35,827 nucleotides of DNA from a virus. A program made the translations under genes and the position numbers. The notes under the pieces were generated by a model. It saw nothing but the letters and a program-made list of their open reading frames with translations, was not told where the DNA came from and made no database searches. The DNA lies in IMG/VR virus record IMGVR_UViG_3300042402_001646, positions 1 through 35,827 of that record; one strand, written 5' to 3'. Below, in pieces: positions 5,565-20,216 of the stretch; within the stretch, counting starts at the first letter, position 1, and each line of letters starts with the position of its first letter.

Positions 5565-6260
5565 ATGAACACACAAGTAAGCACAGTAACAACAATTAAC
5601 ACTACTGATATAATGAATATCAGTAAAGCATTTTATGAAAGCGGAATGTTTACCGACATTAAAAGTGTTGCGCAGGCTATGGTCAAAATATCCGCAGGGC
5701 AAGAAATCGGAATACCTCCATTCGCCTCAATGACTGGTATACATATTATACAAGGAAAGCCAACTATTGGTGCTGGTTTAATAGCATCACGTTTAAAAGG
5801 TAGTGGCAAGTATGATTATCGTGTTGTTGAGGCCTCTGAAAAGGTTTGCTCAATTGATTTCTATCAAGGTAACACAAAGATAGGCAATAGCACATTCACT
5901 ATTGAGGATGCGAAAAAAGCACTAACCAAGAACATTGATAAATTTCCAAAGAATATGCTATTTGCAAGGGCTATCAGTAATGGTGTGAAGTGGTATTGCC
6001 CAGACATCTTTAGTGGACCAGTGTATGTGCCAGAGGAAATGCAAGTAATAACTACTGAAGAGGCTACCCACATCGAAGTTGACACAACTATTGATGAGAT
6101 TATCAATGACATTCAAGTATGTGTTAGTTTAGATGAATTACAAGCTATTTGGAAAGCAGTTCCTAAAGACATTAAACTTGACTTAAGAGTATTAGCAGCA
6201 AAGGATGATATGAAAGCTAAATTAACAACTATTTCATTAACATCTAAAACCGAAGCATAA
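5565..6260 (+). CDS. RecT-like single-strand annealing protein
   Basis: Residues 44-77 contain AGQEIGIPPFASMTGIHIIQ followed by GKPTIGAGLIASRLK, a pattern shared by phage proteins annotated as RecT-family recombinases, with the following YDYRVVEASEK and DAKKAL segments also typical. Such proteins anneal complementary single strands during phage recombination and replication. At 231 aa the length is slightly short for the family, and the C-terminal about 60 residues look like a variable partner-binding tail. It sits between the DUF3127 and Gp157 genes and overlaps the latter by one base (TAATG junction at 6260), supporting a recombination operon. A partner exonuclease was not found next to it. 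Confidence 0.72.
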   Translation: MNTQVSTVTTINTTDIMNISKAFYESGMFTDIKSVAQAMVKISAGQEIGIPPFASMTGIHIIQGKPTIGAGLIASRLKGSGKYDYRVVEASEKVCSIDFYQGNTKIGNSTFTIEDAKKALTKNIDKFPKNMLFARAISNGVKWYCPDIFSGPVYVPEEMQVITTEEATHIEVDTTIDEIINDIQVCVSLDELQAIWKAVPKDIKLDLRVLAAKDDMKAKLTTISLTSKTEA

Positions 6261-6754
6261 TGAAACTAACAATCTATCAAATCGAACAAAGCTATAACCA
6301 ATTAGCTGAAGAACTTATAGAGAATGGGGGTGAGTTAACCCCCTCTCTTGAGGAAGCACTTGCCATTACCGAAGAACAACTGCAAAACAAATCTGTTGCC
6401 TATTCATTTGTTATTAAGCAAATGGATGCAGATGTTGAAATTATTGAGGCTGAAATAAAGAGGTTGCAGGCAGCAAAGAAACAACGTGAGAAAGCATCGG
6501 ATTATTTAAAGGATCGCATTAAACACGCAATGGATTTATTTAGCATTGAAGAAATTAAAACACCATTGGTCAAGATTAACTTTAGAAAATCTGAAACAGT
6601 TGAGGTGGATGATGTTAACAAATTGCCTGCTGCATTCAAAGTGGTAAAGGTAACAGAACAAGCAGATAAGGTAGCTATTAAAGCAGCACTTAAAGATGGT
6701 GTTGAGGTTGCTGGATGCAGCATTGCAACACATCGTAATTTGCAGATTAAGTAA
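6260..6754 (+). CDS. siphovirus Gp157 family protein
   Basis: Matches the Gp157 family (named from Streptococcus thermophilus siphovirus Sfi proteins): N-terminal IENGGELTPSLEEALAIT, a central coiled coil (about residues 45-90, IEAEIKRLQAAKKQREKA), then IKTPLVKINFRKSETVEVDD and a C-terminal AIKAALKDGVEVAG followed by the NLQIK end. Length (164 aa) is normal for the family. Gp157 genes lie with phage recombination genes, as here; their biochemical function is not settled, and resistance or DNA-binding roles have been proposed. A GGGGGT/ACCCCC pair inside the gene near 6326-6343 is most likely a by-product of coding sequence. Confidence 0.85.
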   Translation: MKLTIYQIEQSYNQLAEELIENGGELTPSLEEALAITEEQLQNKSVAYSFVIKQMDADVEIIEAEIKRLQAAKKQREKASDYLKDRIKHAMDLFSIEEIKTPLVKINFRKSETVEVDDVNKLPAAFKVVKVTEQADKVAIKAALKDGVEVAGCSIATHRNLQIK

Positions 6755-6770
6755 TTAATTTATATATTTA
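6739..6770 (+). promoter_or_regulatory. promoter driving the 6776-6870 leader RNA
   Basis: TTTG at 6739-6742 is separated by 20 nt from TATATTTA at 6763-6770 (one mismatch to TAnnTTTG). A start point near 6776-6778 is expected, just before the first strand of the structured leader. Confidence 0.55.
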
Positions 6771-6775
6771 CAAAG

Positions 6776-6870
6776 TTGTTTCGGTCTCACATTATAGAAA
6801 CATAATAATATTGGCCCTTATAGAGGCGCAAGGAAGTGAGACCCCTTGCAAATCTTTAAGGGCTTTTTTA
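6776..6870 (+). ncRNA. candidate structured RNA with pseudoknot and terminator-like end (leader A)
   Basis: Several complementary segments are interleaved. P1: GGTCTCAC (6783-6790) with GTGAGACC (6836-6843), 8 bp. P2: GCCCTTA (6814-6820) with TAAGGGC (6857-6863), 7 bp, followed by six T. P3: GCAAGG (6828-6833) with CCTTGC (6844-6849), whose 10-nt loop contains the second strand of P1. P1 and P2 cross, so they form a pseudoknot if both exist. An alternative hairpin CCCTT/AAGGG (6843-6847 with 6858-6862) before the T-run looks like an intrinsic terminator and competes with P2 and P3. The RNA could be a free sRNA or a leader attenuating the gene at 6883. Confidence 0.5.
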
Positions 6871-6882
6871 ATTTTATACACA

Positions 6883-7056
6883 ATGTACACATATTATTTA
6901 TGCAATGATGGAGGATTTAATACTATTGAACTTCCTATTTTAATTTTTTCAAATTCAGAATTTCACTATGATGAATTTTTTAGTAATTACAGAGTTGAAA
7001 AGCACGAATTAAATGACAATGATGAATTAATAATTATTTGCGAAAAAATTTATTAG
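6883..7056 (+). CDS. hypothetical protein, 57 aa
   Basis: Start chosen at ATG 6883, after the leader's T-run; an earlier TTG-type frame start would lie inside the structured RNA. The protein is acidic and aromatic, starting MYTYYLCNDGGFNTIELPI and ending in DNDELIIICEKIY. No family recognised. Its position directly after the leader makes it the likely regulated gene. Confidence 0.5.
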   Translation: MYTYYLCNDGGFNTIELPILIFSNSEFHYDEFFSNYRVEKHELNDNDELIIICEKIY

Positions 7057-7059
7057 CCA

Positions 7060-7188
7060 ATGAAAATATTTTTTATAAAATCACCAAGTGGCAAACTATA
7101 CACACTAAACGCTGAATCAAAGTTTCACGCGATACAAAAAGCAATAGTTAAGGATGACTTTAAGTATAATTCAAAGCAATACAAATGA
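7060..7188 (+). CDS. small hypothetical protein, 42 aa
   Basis: A short frame from ATG 7060 to TGA 7188. It begins MKIFFIKSPSGKLYTLNAES and continues FHAIQKAIVKDDFKYN, reading like a small beta-then-helix protein. It starts 3 nt after the previous stop and its stop overlaps the next start as ATGA (7185-7188), the packing seen across this genome, which supports it as a real gene. Confidence 0.5.
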   Translation: MKIFFIKSPSGKLYTLNAESKFHAIQKAIVKDDFKYNSKQYK

Positions 7189-8060
7189 ATCCTATTTTTA
7201 ATTATTACGAAGCCGACATCAAACGTAGCACTCCATTAGGTAGTGTTACGCTTGAATATCTTATAAACGCTATTAGAACACCTAAAAAGGACATCCGCAA
7301 TGTATTTGAGGAGATACGTATTGCAGAGGAAAAAAAAGACATGGCAACAAAGCAAGCATTGAAGTCAAAACTATATTCATTTACTCCATGTGTTTATGTT
7401 AACGGGCCGCGTAAGTATTCTAACATTCAACATTGGACTGGCTTACTTGTTTTGGATTTCGACCATTTAGCATCCGATGTGGCAGTTGAATTCAAAGAGT
7501 ATTTATTTAACGAATACAAATACATCATAACCGCGTGGTTATCCGCTTCGAGGCATGGTGTTCGCGCACTGGTTAAGATTCCGATTTGCACTTCGGTTGA
7601 TGAATTCAAACACTATTATGCAGGCATTGAGCGACACCTCAACTGTTACAATGGGTTTGATACCGCGCCAAAAAACTGCATTTTACCGATGTTTATCAGT
7701 TACGATGCCGATATTTTACACAGAAACGATGCGCAAACGTGGTCAACAAAACACATTGAAATTGTTAGGCCTGCAACAAAACAATACATAATTGATGACA
7801 AAACATCTGTTATTGAAAAGATTATTGCTAAACGTATTAATACCATAACCGATACTGGGCATATTATTTTAAGAGCAACTTCGTACTTGCTCGGAGGGTT
7901 TGTTGGCGCGAATTATATTGATTATAATGATGCCATTTCTTTAATCAATAACTTAATTGATTCGCAAAGTTACCTATCAAAAAAGCCTGATGTTTATAAG
8001 CAAACCGCAAAACAAATGGTGGATAAGGGTTTAAATTTTCCTACTTATCTATCTAAATAA
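7185..8060 (+). CDS. VirE_N / BT4734-like primase-type protein
   Basis: Residues about 60-180 match the BT4734/VirE N-terminal domain: SFTPCVYVNGPRKYSNI, then GLLVLDFDHL (DFD at 91-93), then SASRHGVRALVKIP at about 120-133, then a helix and ISYDADI at about 171-177. DFD and the SRHG segment correspond to metal and catalytic motifs of the archaeo-eukaryotic primase fold to which this domain is related. The remaining C-terminal about 90 residues have a helical region like those of primase-helicase linkers. The next large gene is a helicase, so the two likely work as a split primase-helicase at the replication origin. Domain call strong; priming activity is inferred. Confidence 0.8.
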   Translation: MNPIFNYYEADIKRSTPLGSVTLEYLINAIRTPKKDIRNVFEEIRIAEEKKDMATKQALKSKLYSFTPCVYVNGPRKYSNIQHWTGLLVLDFDHLASDVAVEFKEYLFNEYKYIITAWLSASRHGVRALVKIPICTSVDEFKHYYAGIERHLNCYNGFDTAPKNCILPMFISYDADILHRNDAQTWSTKHIEIVRPATKQYIIDDKTSVIEKIIAKRINTITDTGHIILRATSYLLGGFVGANYIDYNDAISLINNLIDSQSYLSKKPDVYKQTAKQMVDKGLNFPTYLSK

Positions 8061-8062
8061 AT

Positions 8063-8092
8063 TTTGCAATTAAAAATATTTAGTTATATTTG
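8063..8092 (+). promoter_or_regulatory. promoter driving the 8097-8196 leader
   Basis: TTTG at 8063-8066, an 18-nt spacer and TATATTTG at 8085-8092 followed by C. This is one of the best matches to the Bacteroidota promoter consensus in the window. Start point expected near 8097. Confidence 0.62.
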
Positions 8093-8096
8093 CATC

Positions 8097-8196
8097 GCTT
8101 ATTCAGTATGAAAACATTCAAAAATCCCATCATTTACACTGCCTAAAGTTACGACCGTAACAACTGGATAAGCCTTTGTATTTGATGGGTATTTTT
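8097..8196 (+). ncRNA. candidate pseudoknotted leader RNA (leader B)
   Basis: P1: GCTTATTCAGT (8097-8107) pairs with ACTGGATAAGC (8163-8173), 11 bp with one G-U. P2: AAAAATCCCATCA (8120-8132) pairs with TGATGGGTATTTTT (8183-8196), 13 bp with one bulged T. P3: GTTAC/GTAAC around a GACC tetraloop (8148-8161). The order is P1a, P2a, P3, P1b, P2b, so P1 and P2 cross as an H-type pseudoknot or as alternatives. P2 ends 3 nt before the ATG at 8200, so it would hide the start codon. The order of elements matches leader A although sequences differ. Confidence 0.5.
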
Positions 8197-8199
8197 ATT

Positions 8200-8388
8200 A
8201 TGAAAAACCAAAAAACAAAAAAAGAAAGATTAGAGTATCTTGCAGGATTAGCAATGCAAAGTTTTATTGTAAAAACTCAAAATAATTATGAATACTTTGA
8301 GCAAAAAAATATTAAACCTATATGTTTTGTTGCTATTCGAATTGCTCAAGAAATGATAAAACAAATTGATGAAAATGAACAAATTTAA
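8200..8388 (+). CDS. hypothetical protein, 62 aa
   Basis: Start chosen at ATG 8200, immediately after the structured leader; an upstream in-frame start at 8176 would lie within it. The protein is basic at its start (KNQKTKKERLEYLAG) and helical (VAIRIAQEMIKQIDENEQ). Unknown function. It overlaps the helicase gene by about 20 nt and is the first gene of the unit controlled by leader B. Confidence 0.55.
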   Translation: MKNQKTKKERLEYLAGLAMQSFIVKTQNNYEYFEQKNIKPICFVAIRIAQEMIKQIDENEQI

Positions 8389-9931
8389 GAAACCCGAAAA
8401 GAATTCAATCTACAACCCAGTAGATTGGTTTAATGAGTTTGGCACGTTTCAGCAAATATTTGAGGGCGATAAAAAATGTATTTCATTTTCAGATACGGAG
8501 GCAACTTATCCAGTTAGTGATGCAAGTGATTTGTCTAAAAGTCCTAATTTTATATTAAATAAAAACGGAAAGATTGACATTAAAAAGTCAAACCCATTTG
8601 ATTTAGCAACAGGGCAAAGCTTCAGTAAATTTATATTGTTGACAACGGTTAAATTTAAAGGCGATTACTTTCAAGCAATGAGTCACGTTTCTTATAATAT
8701 AATGCAAAACGAAATACCTTACATTCGCGTTGGCTCCGATTATTTTAAAGTAATTAAAAAAGATGACCGATATTCCGGAACTAATGTAATCTTAAAGTCA
8801 TGGAAAAAAGATGAAATAAAAGAGGATCATACGAAAAATATACTTTGCAAAATTTATAAGTTTGATGACTTCACAATTATTCCTAATAATGTGACTTTTA
8901 TTCCATCAAAAAACAATTGTTATAATTTGTATGCCAAATTCCCACATACAAAATATAGTGATACTGTTTACACCGATGACATTAGTGTAACACTTGGTTT
9001 ATTAAGTCACATCTTTGGCGAACAATTAGAGTTAGGTTTGAAGTACATGAAGTTGTTATACGAGTATCCTTGTCAAATATTGCCAGTGCTTTCTTTAGTT
9101 TCAACTGAAAGAGAAACTGGTAAGACAACCTTTTTAAATTATATTCAGATGTTATTTGGCGAAAATTCAACACTTATTAATCCAAGTGATTTAATGAGTA
9201 GCTTTAATGATGCCTATGCCACCAAGAATATAATTATGATTGATGAAACCGTAATTGAAAAGCAACACGTTGTTGAAAAACTTAAATCGTTGGCAACTGC
9301 AAAAACTATTTCAGTATCGCAAAAGTTTGTTCAACATTACAGCGTGCCATTCTTTGGTAAAATTATCGTTTGCACAAATAAGGAAACCGATTTTATGAGA
9401 ATAGATGACGAAGAGATACGCTTTTGGATTAGGAAAATTAACCCGATTGTTGGCAAAAAAAACACGAATATTGAAAATGATTTGTTTAATGAGATTCCTA
9501 AATTCCTTAAATATTTAGAACAACTTCCTGATATTGACTTTTCAAATTCTCGCATGGTATTCACTCAGGAGGAAATACAAACCGAATCGCTGGAACTTAT
9601 CAAAAAAGAAAGTAAAAACGGATTAAGAAAAGAACTTGAAATATACATCGAAGACTTTTTTAACAATAATAATTGTGATACATTTGAAGCAACAGCAAAA
9701 GATATAAAAGAGGAATGGTTTGAACATGATAGGGAAAAGATGTCTTACATTCTTAAAGTGCTTAAAAACGAAATGAAAATGTCACCACAACCGAATAAGT
9801 ATTATGTGCCATTTAATAAGACTAATATGTTGGATAAAAAGAAAGGAACTCCGTTTCTATTTGTGAGGGAAAATACTCAAACCGTTGAAAATGAATCTTA
9901 TAGTGATTATGAAAACAGACAACCATTTTAA
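8369..9931 (+). CDS. SF3-type replicative helicase (D5/primase-helicase like)
   Basis: An ATP-driven helicase likely unwinding the phage origin. The ATPase core is near the middle: Walker A STERETGKTT at about residues 245-254, Walker B IIMIDE at about 288-293, and the SF3 motif C segment GKIIVCTNK at about 330-338, followed by an arginine-rich RIDDEEIRFWIRK stretch. The N-terminal 200 residues include no clear zinc-binding primase motif, consistent with primase activity being in the previous gene. The C-terminal about 130 residues are charged, likely a DNA- or partner-binding domain. ATG 8369 is preferred to the TTG at 8366; ATG 8375 is also possible. The 520-aa length fits phage enzymes of this type. 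Confidence 0.85.
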   Translation: MKMNKFKKPEKNSIYNPVDWFNEFGTFQQIFEGDKKCISFSDTEATYPVSDASDLSKSPNFILNKNGKIDIKKSNPFDLATGQSFSKFILLTTVKFKGDYFQAMSHVSYNIMQNEIPYIRVGSDYFKVIKKDDRYSGTNVILKSWKKDEIKEDHTKNILCKIYKFDDFTIIPNNVTFIPSKNNCYNLYAKFPHTKYSDTVYTDDISVTLGLLSHIFGEQLELGLKYMKLLYEYPCQILPVLSLVSTERETGKTTFLNYIQMLFGENSTLINPSDLMSSFNDAYATKNIIMIDETVIEKQHVVEKLKSLATAKTISVSQKFVQHYSVPFFGKIIVCTNKETDFMRIDDEEIRFWIRKINPIVGKKNTNIENDLFNEIPKFLKYLEQLPDIDFSNSRMVFTQEEIQTESLELIKKESKNGLRKELEIYIEDFFNNNNCDTFEATAKDIKEEWFEHDREKMSYILKVLKNEMKMSPQPNKYYVPFNKTNMLDKKKGTPFLFVRENTQTVENESYSDYENRQPF

Positions 9932-17991: not shown

Positions 17992-20216
17992 ATTGGAAGT
18001 TCACATTAATAGACAGTTCAAGTGTTTCGACCGTTGTTGAATCGCCAGTTGGGTGGAATGGTATTGGTGGCAACTTAACACGTAACATTGTGCATCATGG
18101 CATCAATATAAACATCTCAACTGATTCATTTGAGTGGGTTGGTGAAGCTTACGATTTGCTTTATACCGAGTATCAAACAAATGGAGCCAATGGTCAATAC
18201 CAGGTGCAAATCGATTACGAGTGTGCCGAGGGCGATGGCTATACAAACTACTTTATAGGTGCATTTGACTTCAATACATTTGAAAGGCAATGTGCTGATT
18301 ATTGCTTTATAAAGTTAAGCGTTACCGCATCCAAGTGCACCGATGTGTTTATGAGTAGAATGGGTCAAGATGTTGACATTTTAACTACACAAAACTTTGA
18401 TGGCGAAACCATAAGCCCTATGAGTTATACTACTTTGAACATTGAAGGGCAGAATATATTATTGCAAAACAAAGCAAACAATGTAGATAGTGAAACATTT
18501 AATGAAACCTCAACCGATTTAAGTGGATTAACTGGCAATAGATATTATGATATTCCATTATTTTTGCCTAATAATCCATTAGCTGAGATGGGTAATATTG
18601 AAAGTGGCTCACCCGCTTGGAATGTTAACAATGTTTCTCCCGTAATTGTAGCGAAAAACGGAGCTTTAGACAACATAGTTTTTCCTTTAGCAGATGGCGA
18701 AAGTGATTTTGAAAACTACTTTCAATTTATGTATCTTTATGAGCCAGGCAATAATGATTGTGTAAATGATTTATCTATTGAATGGGTTGCAAAAGGAACA
18801 TTTGAGATTACACCTAATTACAACGGTAATGCAACAATAGTATTAAGGGCTAACAAACGCAATCCAATTACAAACGCTGATTTTGATGACTTAGGTACTG
18901 TTACAATAGCTACAACTGCAACACTAACAAATGGTGTAACTTTATCAATACCATTTGATGAAACATTTACTGGAACAACACCACAACCTTTGCCAAATAG
19001 TTATATTTCTTTTGTTTGGCATATTACAATTTTTAAATCAACTGCAAGCGCAGTAGATACAACTAATTTTGTTGTTGCTTATGATACTTTAACAAATTTT
19101 TATATGTATTCAGATAGTGCTTGCCCACCATCAGTTACGCGTTCAGTTCCATTGCCTGACTTGTTAGAGTTCTTACCGACTGCATACATGGACACAGATT
19201 GTCCATTGTTGGAGGTTGAGGCTGAGTTAAGAGATTGCTTAGATAGATATTCAATAACTAAGGGCTCATTTTTACGTGATGTAACTGAGCCAAGTGTTCC
19301 AAAATTATTTGTATCATACGAATATTTATTTGAGCAATGCCGCAAAATATTTAACATCGGTTGGGGGTTTGACAACAACGAAACCGAATTAAAGATTGCA
19401 CGTATTGAACACTTTTATAAATCAACAATAGTTGTTGATGTGGGATTGGTTGACAAAGCTATATTCACAACTGCAAAAGATTTGATTTACGGAACGATAA
19501 TGGTTGGATATAACAAGTGGGAAGCCGAAGAGTTTAACGGGTTGGATGAGATGAATACAGAGCGACAATACCGCAGAAACATCGACTCAAACCCAACTGA
19601 GTTAGACCTAATGGCTGATATCATAAGTGCAGGATATACGATTGAGGTAACACGTAGAAAAAACCAAGCCGAAACGGGCACAAGTGACTGGCGTTATGAT
19701 GATGACTTGTTTATTATTAATTCAGAAACTATTGATGGTTTTTTATATGCAATAAGAGGCATTGACAATGGCGCTGCAAACATCTATTCGCCATCAACAC
19801 GAATGAACTACGTGTTGACACCAGTGCGCAACTTGTTGAGGTGGTTTAAATCTATTGCCGCAGCTACACCGATAGCAACAAATGAATCGCAAATCTTTAC
19901 AAGCGGCACTGGTAATTACATTGCAACGGGTGAAATGACCGCAACTTGTCAAATCGAAAATCAACCTATTGCAGAAAACGTGACCATAAGCACTGCAATA
20001 ATGGGCGATGTTTACTATGAAACACCGATTTGGAAAACTGAATATGTGACTTTTACTGCTCCGTTTTCGATGGCAGACTTTGAAGATGTTAAAGTAAATC
20101 CTTATGGTGCAATTCGATTCAGATGCTCAGACACTTACTATATTGGTAACATTGTTGAAATAAATCACGATCCGAATGAGGGCTTAGCAGAATTTAAACT
20201 TTTAATTAGAAGATAA
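17988..20216 (+). CDS. tail tip / baseplate protein, 742 aa
   Basis: Follows the tape measure with an ATGA overlap, the usual position of distal tail or tip proteins (Dit/Tal-like). No enzymatic motif seen. The N-terminal region (WKFTLIDSSSVSTVVESP, GININISTDSFEWVGEAYDLL) is beta-rich and suggests a tube-closing domain; the middle contains a Thr-rich beta region, and from about residue 390 a section with CPLLEVEAELRDCL and FNIGWGFDNNETELKIARIE resembles the hub domains of long tip proteins. The C-terminus (about 690-742) resembles a small OB-like strand set. Cysteines are frequent. Exact homology not recognised. Confidence 0.6.
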   Translation: MNWKFTLIDSSSVSTVVESPVGWNGIGGNLTRNIVHHGININISTDSFEWVGEAYDLLYTEYQTNGANGQYQVQIDYECAEGDGYTNYFIGAFDFNTFERQCADYCFIKLSVTASKCTDVFMSRMGQDVDILTTQNFDGETISPMSYTTLNIEGQNILLQNKANNVDSETFNETSTDLSGLTGNRYYDIPLFLPNNPLAEMGNIESGSPAWNVNNVSPVIVAKNGALDNIVFPLADGESDFENYFQFMYLYEPGNNDCVNDLSIEWVAKGTFEITPNYNGNATIVLRANKRNPITNADFDDLGTVTIATTATLTNGVTLSIPFDETFTGTTPQPLPNSYISFVWHITIFKSTASAVDTTNFVVAYDTLTNFYMYSDSACPPSVTRSVPLPDLLEFLPTAYMDTDCPLLEVEAELRDCLDRYSITKGSFLRDVTEPSVPKLFVSYEYLFEQCRKIFNIGWGFDNNETELKIARIEHFYKSTIVVDVGLVDKAIFTTAKDLIYGTIMVGYNKWEAEEFNGLDEMNTERQYRRNIDSNPTELDLMADIISAGYTIEVTRRKNQAETGTSDWRYDDDLFIINSETIDGFLYAIRGIDNGAANIYSPSTRMNYVLTPVRNLLRWFKSIAAATPIATNESQIFTSGTGNYIATGEMTATCQIENQPIAENVTISTAIMGDVYYETPIWKTEYVTFTAPFSMADFEDVKVNPYGAIRFRCSDTYYIGNIVEINHDPNEGLAEFKLLIRR

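Follow-up and report, generated by a model that had tools for sequence, protein, structure and literature searches.

In ColE1 (RNA I/RNA II kissing) and in pT181-type attenuation, RNA controls replication genes through a loop-loop pairing of seven bases. The leader of T4 gene 32 carries a 5' pseudoknot on a phage replication gene, whose own product controls translation. HK022 put is a structured antiterminator RNA at the start of a phage transcript, which has no built-in terminator and whose sequence is kept. Type III toxin-antitoxin RNAs have tandem repeats of a pseudoknot ahead of the gene for a toxin. In corrinoid riboswitches, a loop-loop contact favours the terminator (P. megaterium metE) or prevents one (A. 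halodurans cobT), according to PMC10653944. No description of the leader design presented here was found in the literature that was searched, with subscription papers and most preprints lying outside its scope. PMC11697453 concerns FopS sRNAs, which are unrelated to the leaders, and in PMC8040213 a candidate with a palindrome is named that lies close to phage D5 domains in Bacteroidetes.

In this paper we looked at two leaders, A and B, in a viral record of 35,827 bases, which was analyzed over its whole length and is called the window. We suggest, with a probability of roughly 60%, that the leaders act in cis as transcription attenuators, each defined by its structure. Both leaders lie where the first-pass annotation had placed them, on the plus strand, as are their parts and the ORFs named behind them, and both have a -7 promoter box of the Bacteroidota type; the naming of the boxes is based on TAnnTTTG, which we take to be the Bacteroidota consensus.

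In leader A (6777-6869) a promoter is followed by the strand P1a, by a terminator-like hairpin, P2, and by a T-run with a start codon behind it. Its -7 box TATATTTA (6763-6770) is followed by a 5' hairpin, P0 (TGTTTC/GAAACA, 6777-6782 with 6797-6802), whose loop carries P1a GGTCTCAC (6783-6790), and by an unpaired linker (6803-6812) with an AATATT motif that was picked post hoc. The terminator-like stem P2 (6813-6824 with 6853-6864) shows covariation in the class A elements described below. P3 (6828-6833 with 6844-6849) closes a 10-base loop that bears P1b GTGAGACC (6836-6843), and six T's (6864-6869) form the T-run, 13 bases 3' of which the ATG is found. Leader A is thus predicted to be a loop-loop (kissing) fold, with P1a in the P0 loop and P1b in the P3 loop. 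In the earlier description the P0 hairpin had been missed, and the order 'P3, then P1b' given there for leader A was wrong, as P1b lies inside the P3 loop.

Leader B (8097-8196) likewise runs from a promoter and P1a through P2 to a T-run and the start codon behind it, and is without P0. Its P1a GCTTATTCAGT (8097-8107) starts 4 nt 3' of the -7 box TATATTTG (8085-8092) and forms an 11-bp P1 with P1b ACTGGATAAGC (8163-8173), spanning both P2a (8126-8132) and the hairpin P3 (GTTAC-GACC-GTAAC, 8148-8152/8157-8161). Here P3 does come before P1b, as had been described. P2a pairs with P2b (8183-8189), which leads into the T's (8192-8196), and the ATG stands 3 bases further on. Leader B is an open pseudoknot. 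The first-pass annotation had claimed one architecture for both leaders: the crossing order P1a, P2a, P1b, P2b is common to A and B, and in both P2b has a T-rich end, but the architecture is not identical, A being of the kissing type and B an open pseudoknot. From reading their sequences, the variants keep neither the leader ORF of B nor the in-frame TTG ORF of A, and both ORFs were rejected.

Behind the leaders are the small ORFs that had been named before, each ahead of a replication-type protein: an ORF of 57 aa (6883-7056) behind leader A, which has no family match and is replaced by other genes in relatives, ahead of a BT4734-like/VirE-N protein of 291 aa (7185-8060), and an ORF of 62 aa (8200-8388) behind leader B, ahead of a DUF5906/phage primase-like protein (8366-9931). 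The region at 6755-7184 of the window, between a Gam-like gene (6260-6754) and the VirE-N gene, is in the window and in relatives a hotspot of gene exchange, where promoter and leader are retained while the genes downstream change.

We searched the window with a crossing-stem descriptor that required a TAnnTTT(G/A) box with P1a no more than 50 nt away, a P1 (7 bp or longer) that crosses a P2 (6 bp or longer), P2 ending at a T-run and an ATG within 26 nt. Leaders A and B are the only two matches in the window (scores 25 and 26), compared with 0.083 matches per window, none scoring at least 25, in 60 dinucleotide shuffles of 500-base blocks. A looser descriptor, with neither promoter nor start codon, gave 4 matches in the window, A among them and B missed, and 2-8 per shuffle; because of this yield stems alone are not significant, and they were rejected as evidence. 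The significance is carried by context and covariation and not by stems alone. The T-run and the start codon were built into the descriptors, and their presence in descriptor matches is no independent evidence.

In related viral contigs, of which 40 loci encode the 291-aa BT4734/VirE-N protein, whole or in part, at 82-100% identity, three further sequence-unrelated classes, C, D and E, were found besides A and B. Pattern searches gave 65 (A), 15 (B), 8 (C), 16 (E) and 7 (D) stretches, some of which are not real elements; L001, a piece of the window, and identical stretches were removed before counting. The class A alignment contains 25 distinct elements from 36 distinct pattern cores in viral contigs, the 11 cores left out being 10 chance matches and one incomplete element. 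In these elements P1a reads GGTCTCAC, GGTTCGAC or GATTCCAC and the exact partner is present each time; every P1 pair is kept in 25/25 elements, and both sides have changed in 4/8 pairs of P1, 5/11 of P2 and 5/6 of P3. P0 shows no covariation in class A because its sequence does not vary there, and it occurs with other sequences in other families. Overall, 99.7% of the cells are paired and 14 of the 31 pairs have changed on both sides, with a covariation score of 0.458 vs 0.184 for shuffled and 0.04-0.075 for slid alignments.

Compensatory changes were also seen in classes B, C, D and E and in two further families. Class B has 3 versions of P1, all paired, with both-sided change in 3/11 pairs; classes D and E show covariation in P3, the class E P1 being invariant. 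In class C the P1 GATTCAC/GTGAATC has only one both-sided change among its 7 pairs, and it was kept because the alternative CGAAGTAA/TTGCTTCG, often favoured by the scan, is absent in L006 and L036; C2 has one A-C mismatch in P2. A class C hairpin, ATTAGG-AGT-CCTAAT (within L006:4900-5021), is a possible antiterminator that overlaps P2a; it is weaker in C2. Classes C and D, like RAP44, deviate from the kissing form. Among the distances listed, the start codon follows the T-run at 5-20 nt, mostly 12-15, in class A (48 distinct contexts), at 3-4 nt in class B (8 contexts) and at 11-12 nt in class C (14 contexts).

A covariance model of class A, R1, was built with P0, P2 and P3 and with P1 left out. 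A covariance-model search of Bacteroidota phages had been proposed. R1 matched Cellulophaga phage phi10:1, outside the phage group of class A, end to end (E 2.4e-5), and phi10:1 carries P1 as GTACGAC/GTCGTAC, although R1 contains no P1. A pattern made from the stretch 3' of the T-run in phi10:1 and hemulen9-1 fetched ten contigs, which after dropping identical stretches held five distinct elements beyond those two (L317, L321, L322, L323 and L324). P0, P1 and P2 are present in 5/5, with the P1 letters GTGAGAAG, CCATCAC, GTGAGATTTA, GTGAGACG and GTACGAC; L324 is near-identical to phi10:1. The T-run is short in phi10:1 and L322. In elemoE, which was fetched by blast and is 73% identical to elemoA over the region, 4/7 P1 pairs have changed on both sides. 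Among 26 representatives the cognate 5' and 3' parts score 10-21, while 650 non-cognate pairs average 7.0, with 17 at 11 or more; many of the representatives were selected by P1, and these scores serve as an illustration. Between T-run and start codon, the stretch TTTAATAGTTnTnGGTAATCTTnAAACC shows strong conservation at two loci (L240:10344-10390 and L292:14878-14930), where the leader 5' of it diverges.

Twenty named Bacteroidota phages were scanned whole, phiST minus its last 114 bases. The crossing-stem descriptor gave 7 matches in 7 phages vs 1.8 expected, 6 of them scoring at least 24 vs 0.35 expected. A stricter kissing descriptor, requiring a P0 hairpin, a loop-loop P1, P2, a T-run, a promoter and an ATG within 75, gave 10 matches in 9 phages vs 2.2 expected, and all 10 score at least 29 (0.5 expected), a cut that was fixed after seeing the scan results. 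The FPSV-S1 match at 18158 lies inside a coding region and was counted as chance. The nine accepted elements are all intergenic and belong to 8/20 phages: phi10:1, RAP44, P12002L, hemulen9-1 (two), elemoA, FCL-2, 11b and B40-8. No element was accepted in the other 12/20, including lotta8-2, FPSV-S1 and phi18:2, in which the VirE-N gene of the window is also present, and none was found in B124-14, where similarity to B40-8 exists only in sequence further downstream. As controls, lambda gave 1 match (score 26), T4 none and 360 kb of host-bin DNA of the MAG G016 two (25 and 27); none of the three reaches 29 or shows an excess over shuffles. The five sequence-unrelated classes, together with the recurrence in other phage genera, support the earlier suggestion of a general design in this phage group. 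In RAP44 (L245:13721-13890) the P1b of the terminator loop, GCACTTGGATTAACA, could pair with the 5' end or with the start codon, because it also matches the start-codon region ATGTTAATCCAA.

A search of 395 Bacteroidota genomes with R1 gave a match only in G016, where contig C74 carries a class A element (L127, 674-765; Bacteroidetes MAG ZE-17mar17-168). This was the sole real element among 48 class A pattern matches in genome-collection contigs. It is probably a phage contig that was binned with its host and is a hint to the host, although the link of G016 to the host is uncertain.

The genes behind the class elements are exchangeable. From reading the translations, they include the MKIF and MYTYY small proteins, a DnaJ-like protein, HNH endonucleases, a primase directly and DNA methylases. 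One gene can follow elements with different P1 letters, so that no single gene product goes with the element. The gene that comes next in FCL-2 and P12002L has matches to families of phage replication initiation (phrog_428, 4.7e-32; phrog_678, 1.1e-37); phi10:1 and hemulen9-1 have an ORF of 70-72 aa, then a protein weakly matching primosomal families and then a primase; in elemoA a replication protein and a primase/helicase come after an ORF of 75 aa. Exceptions to this placement are RAP44 (109-aa ORF, then Ant), B40-8 (Rha), hem2 (HNH), 11b (48-aa ORF) and class E (methylases). The class E elements (L049, L170, L193, L200, L202, L207 and L211) mark another exchange site, ahead of methylase-like genes of several kinds (MNVLSLFDG, MNVVSLFNG, MNKIFNEDCL).

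The geometry of the loops is regular. E, hem2 and P12002L have 8-base loops on both sides, in each of which seven bases pair and the one at the 5' end does not. In A and phi10:1 the P0 loop is 0 + 8 (or 7) + 6 (or 5) and the P3 loop 2 (or 1) + 8 (or 7) + 0, of which hem1, L317 and L323 are the mirror image, with elemoA close (3+7+0 and 0+7+9). FCL-2, B40-8, L321, L322, elemoE and 11b have less regular loops. The stems of both hairpins stay intact with the loops paired, and for this reason P1 seems to connect two formed hairpins instead of competing with them. In 15/19 elements P0 or P1a starts 3-6 nt 3' of the -7 box, the outliers being L322 and D (10 nt), RAP44 (1 nt) and B40-8, which has no box by the pattern used. 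The linker motif RA(A/C/T)ATT occurs in 17/19 elements vs 6.2 in shuffles, with the motif chosen post hoc and some families related.

The helices and their crossing are well supported by sequence comparison, which also supports the order from promoter through leader and T-run to start codon, and the recurrence. A promoter and a hairpin like an intrinsic terminator are found ahead of the start codon, and since they stand in a fixed order, with the 5' strand between promoter and hairpin, a conditional terminator would be the simplest reading; from the same fixed order we infer that the design is regulatory. Corrinoid riboswitches, in which a terminator is set by contact between loops (PMC10653944), are a precedent for such a reading. 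RNA polymerase would begin a few bases 5' of P0 (or P1a), producing a leader of 90-120 nt. Its 5' end, in A the P0 loop, would pair with the loop of the intrinsic terminator hairpin to give a kissing-loop or pseudoknotted terminator, and transcription would halt at the T-run, if such terminators function in Bacteroidota as we assume. A signal would then let the polymerase through to the small gene and to the replication or accessory genes downstream; the trigger may be a factor that binds the RA(A/C/T)ATT linker, the best candidate for a binding site. That kissing favours the terminator is a guess, towards which we lean because paired loops fit both hairpins.

Another explanation is a stand-alone small RNA gene, with a promoter, a structured RNA of ~95 nt and a terminator, that acts in trans and is near the genes by coincidence. 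The RNA between promoter and T-run is indeed compact, with its 5' and 3' hairpins in contact, which would suit a stable sRNA, and one gene is seen behind different P1 letters. Yet the start codon is close by, at a distance that is typical of each class (distinct contexts of A, B and C), the element has the orientation of the gene, and there is no conserved seed except the short linker motif, all of which makes such an RNA gene rather unlikely. The start of P0 or P1a so close behind the -7 box and the position next to the start codon would also fit a 5' UTR that stabilizes the mRNA or tunes translation, with P0 blocking 5' decay and a T-run that does not terminate. This we consider unlikely to a somewhat higher degree, as a T-run directly after P2 is also found in L317, L321, L322 and L323, which were fetched without requiring it. 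Chance crossing stems in AT-rich gaps, of which the loosest descriptor yields several per shuffled window, are hardly credible against the class A covariation, the P1 that was found blind and the shuffle controls.

The attenuator could have a second role, which we find improbable. The terminated short RNA may also be a trans regulator, whose free loops pair with the cognate loops of nascent leaders; each phage would have a compensated pair of loops, private to it, by which its own genomes are counted or relatives of the same loop type are blocked when they superinfect, and replication modules would be gated in this way across Bacteroidota phages. Such a system can be likened to RNA incompatibility, here for phages.

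In kind, the design is an attenuator; what is new is a kissing terminator with no recognizable aptamer and with changing sequence, ahead of phage replication genes. That the fold recurs while its sequence changes suggests a type of genetic switch not yet described. If this is true, it is an RNA control device set by its fold rather than its sequence, which RNA searches based on sequence would miss and which recurs in several genera of Bacteroidota phages, repeatedly ahead of replication-initiation or primase genes. It would give a testable handle on replication timing in these phages and portable, loop-swappable terminators for a phylum that is poor in genetic parts. Rfam 15 at gathering score gave 0 matches in the window and, on 10 loci bearing elements, only 4 tRNAs, all in L321; no corrinoid aptamer was matched in either set.

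Compared with the known systems, ColE1 and pT181 differ in that both loops here are in one molecule, and no antisense gene was identified. In T4 gene 32 the situation is also different, as here genes are exchangeable behind one element. Like HK022 put, the leaders are structured RNAs at the start of a phage transcript, with an effect on termination that is proposed here, but they have a terminator-like hairpin built in and their sequence changes. The leaders are also like the corrinoid (B12) riboswitch with its L5-L13 contact, where, according to PMC10653944, the loop of a hairpin further 5' pairs with that of the hairpin in the expression platform, which decides terminator formation; here the loop pairing is supported by covariation in class A, and an effect on the terminator is proposed. 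Compared with what is described there (PMC10653944), no aptamer is recognized here and the kissing loop is on the terminator hairpin itself, the contacts are mostly 7-8 bp rather than 3-5, and the loop letters are not conserved between classes.
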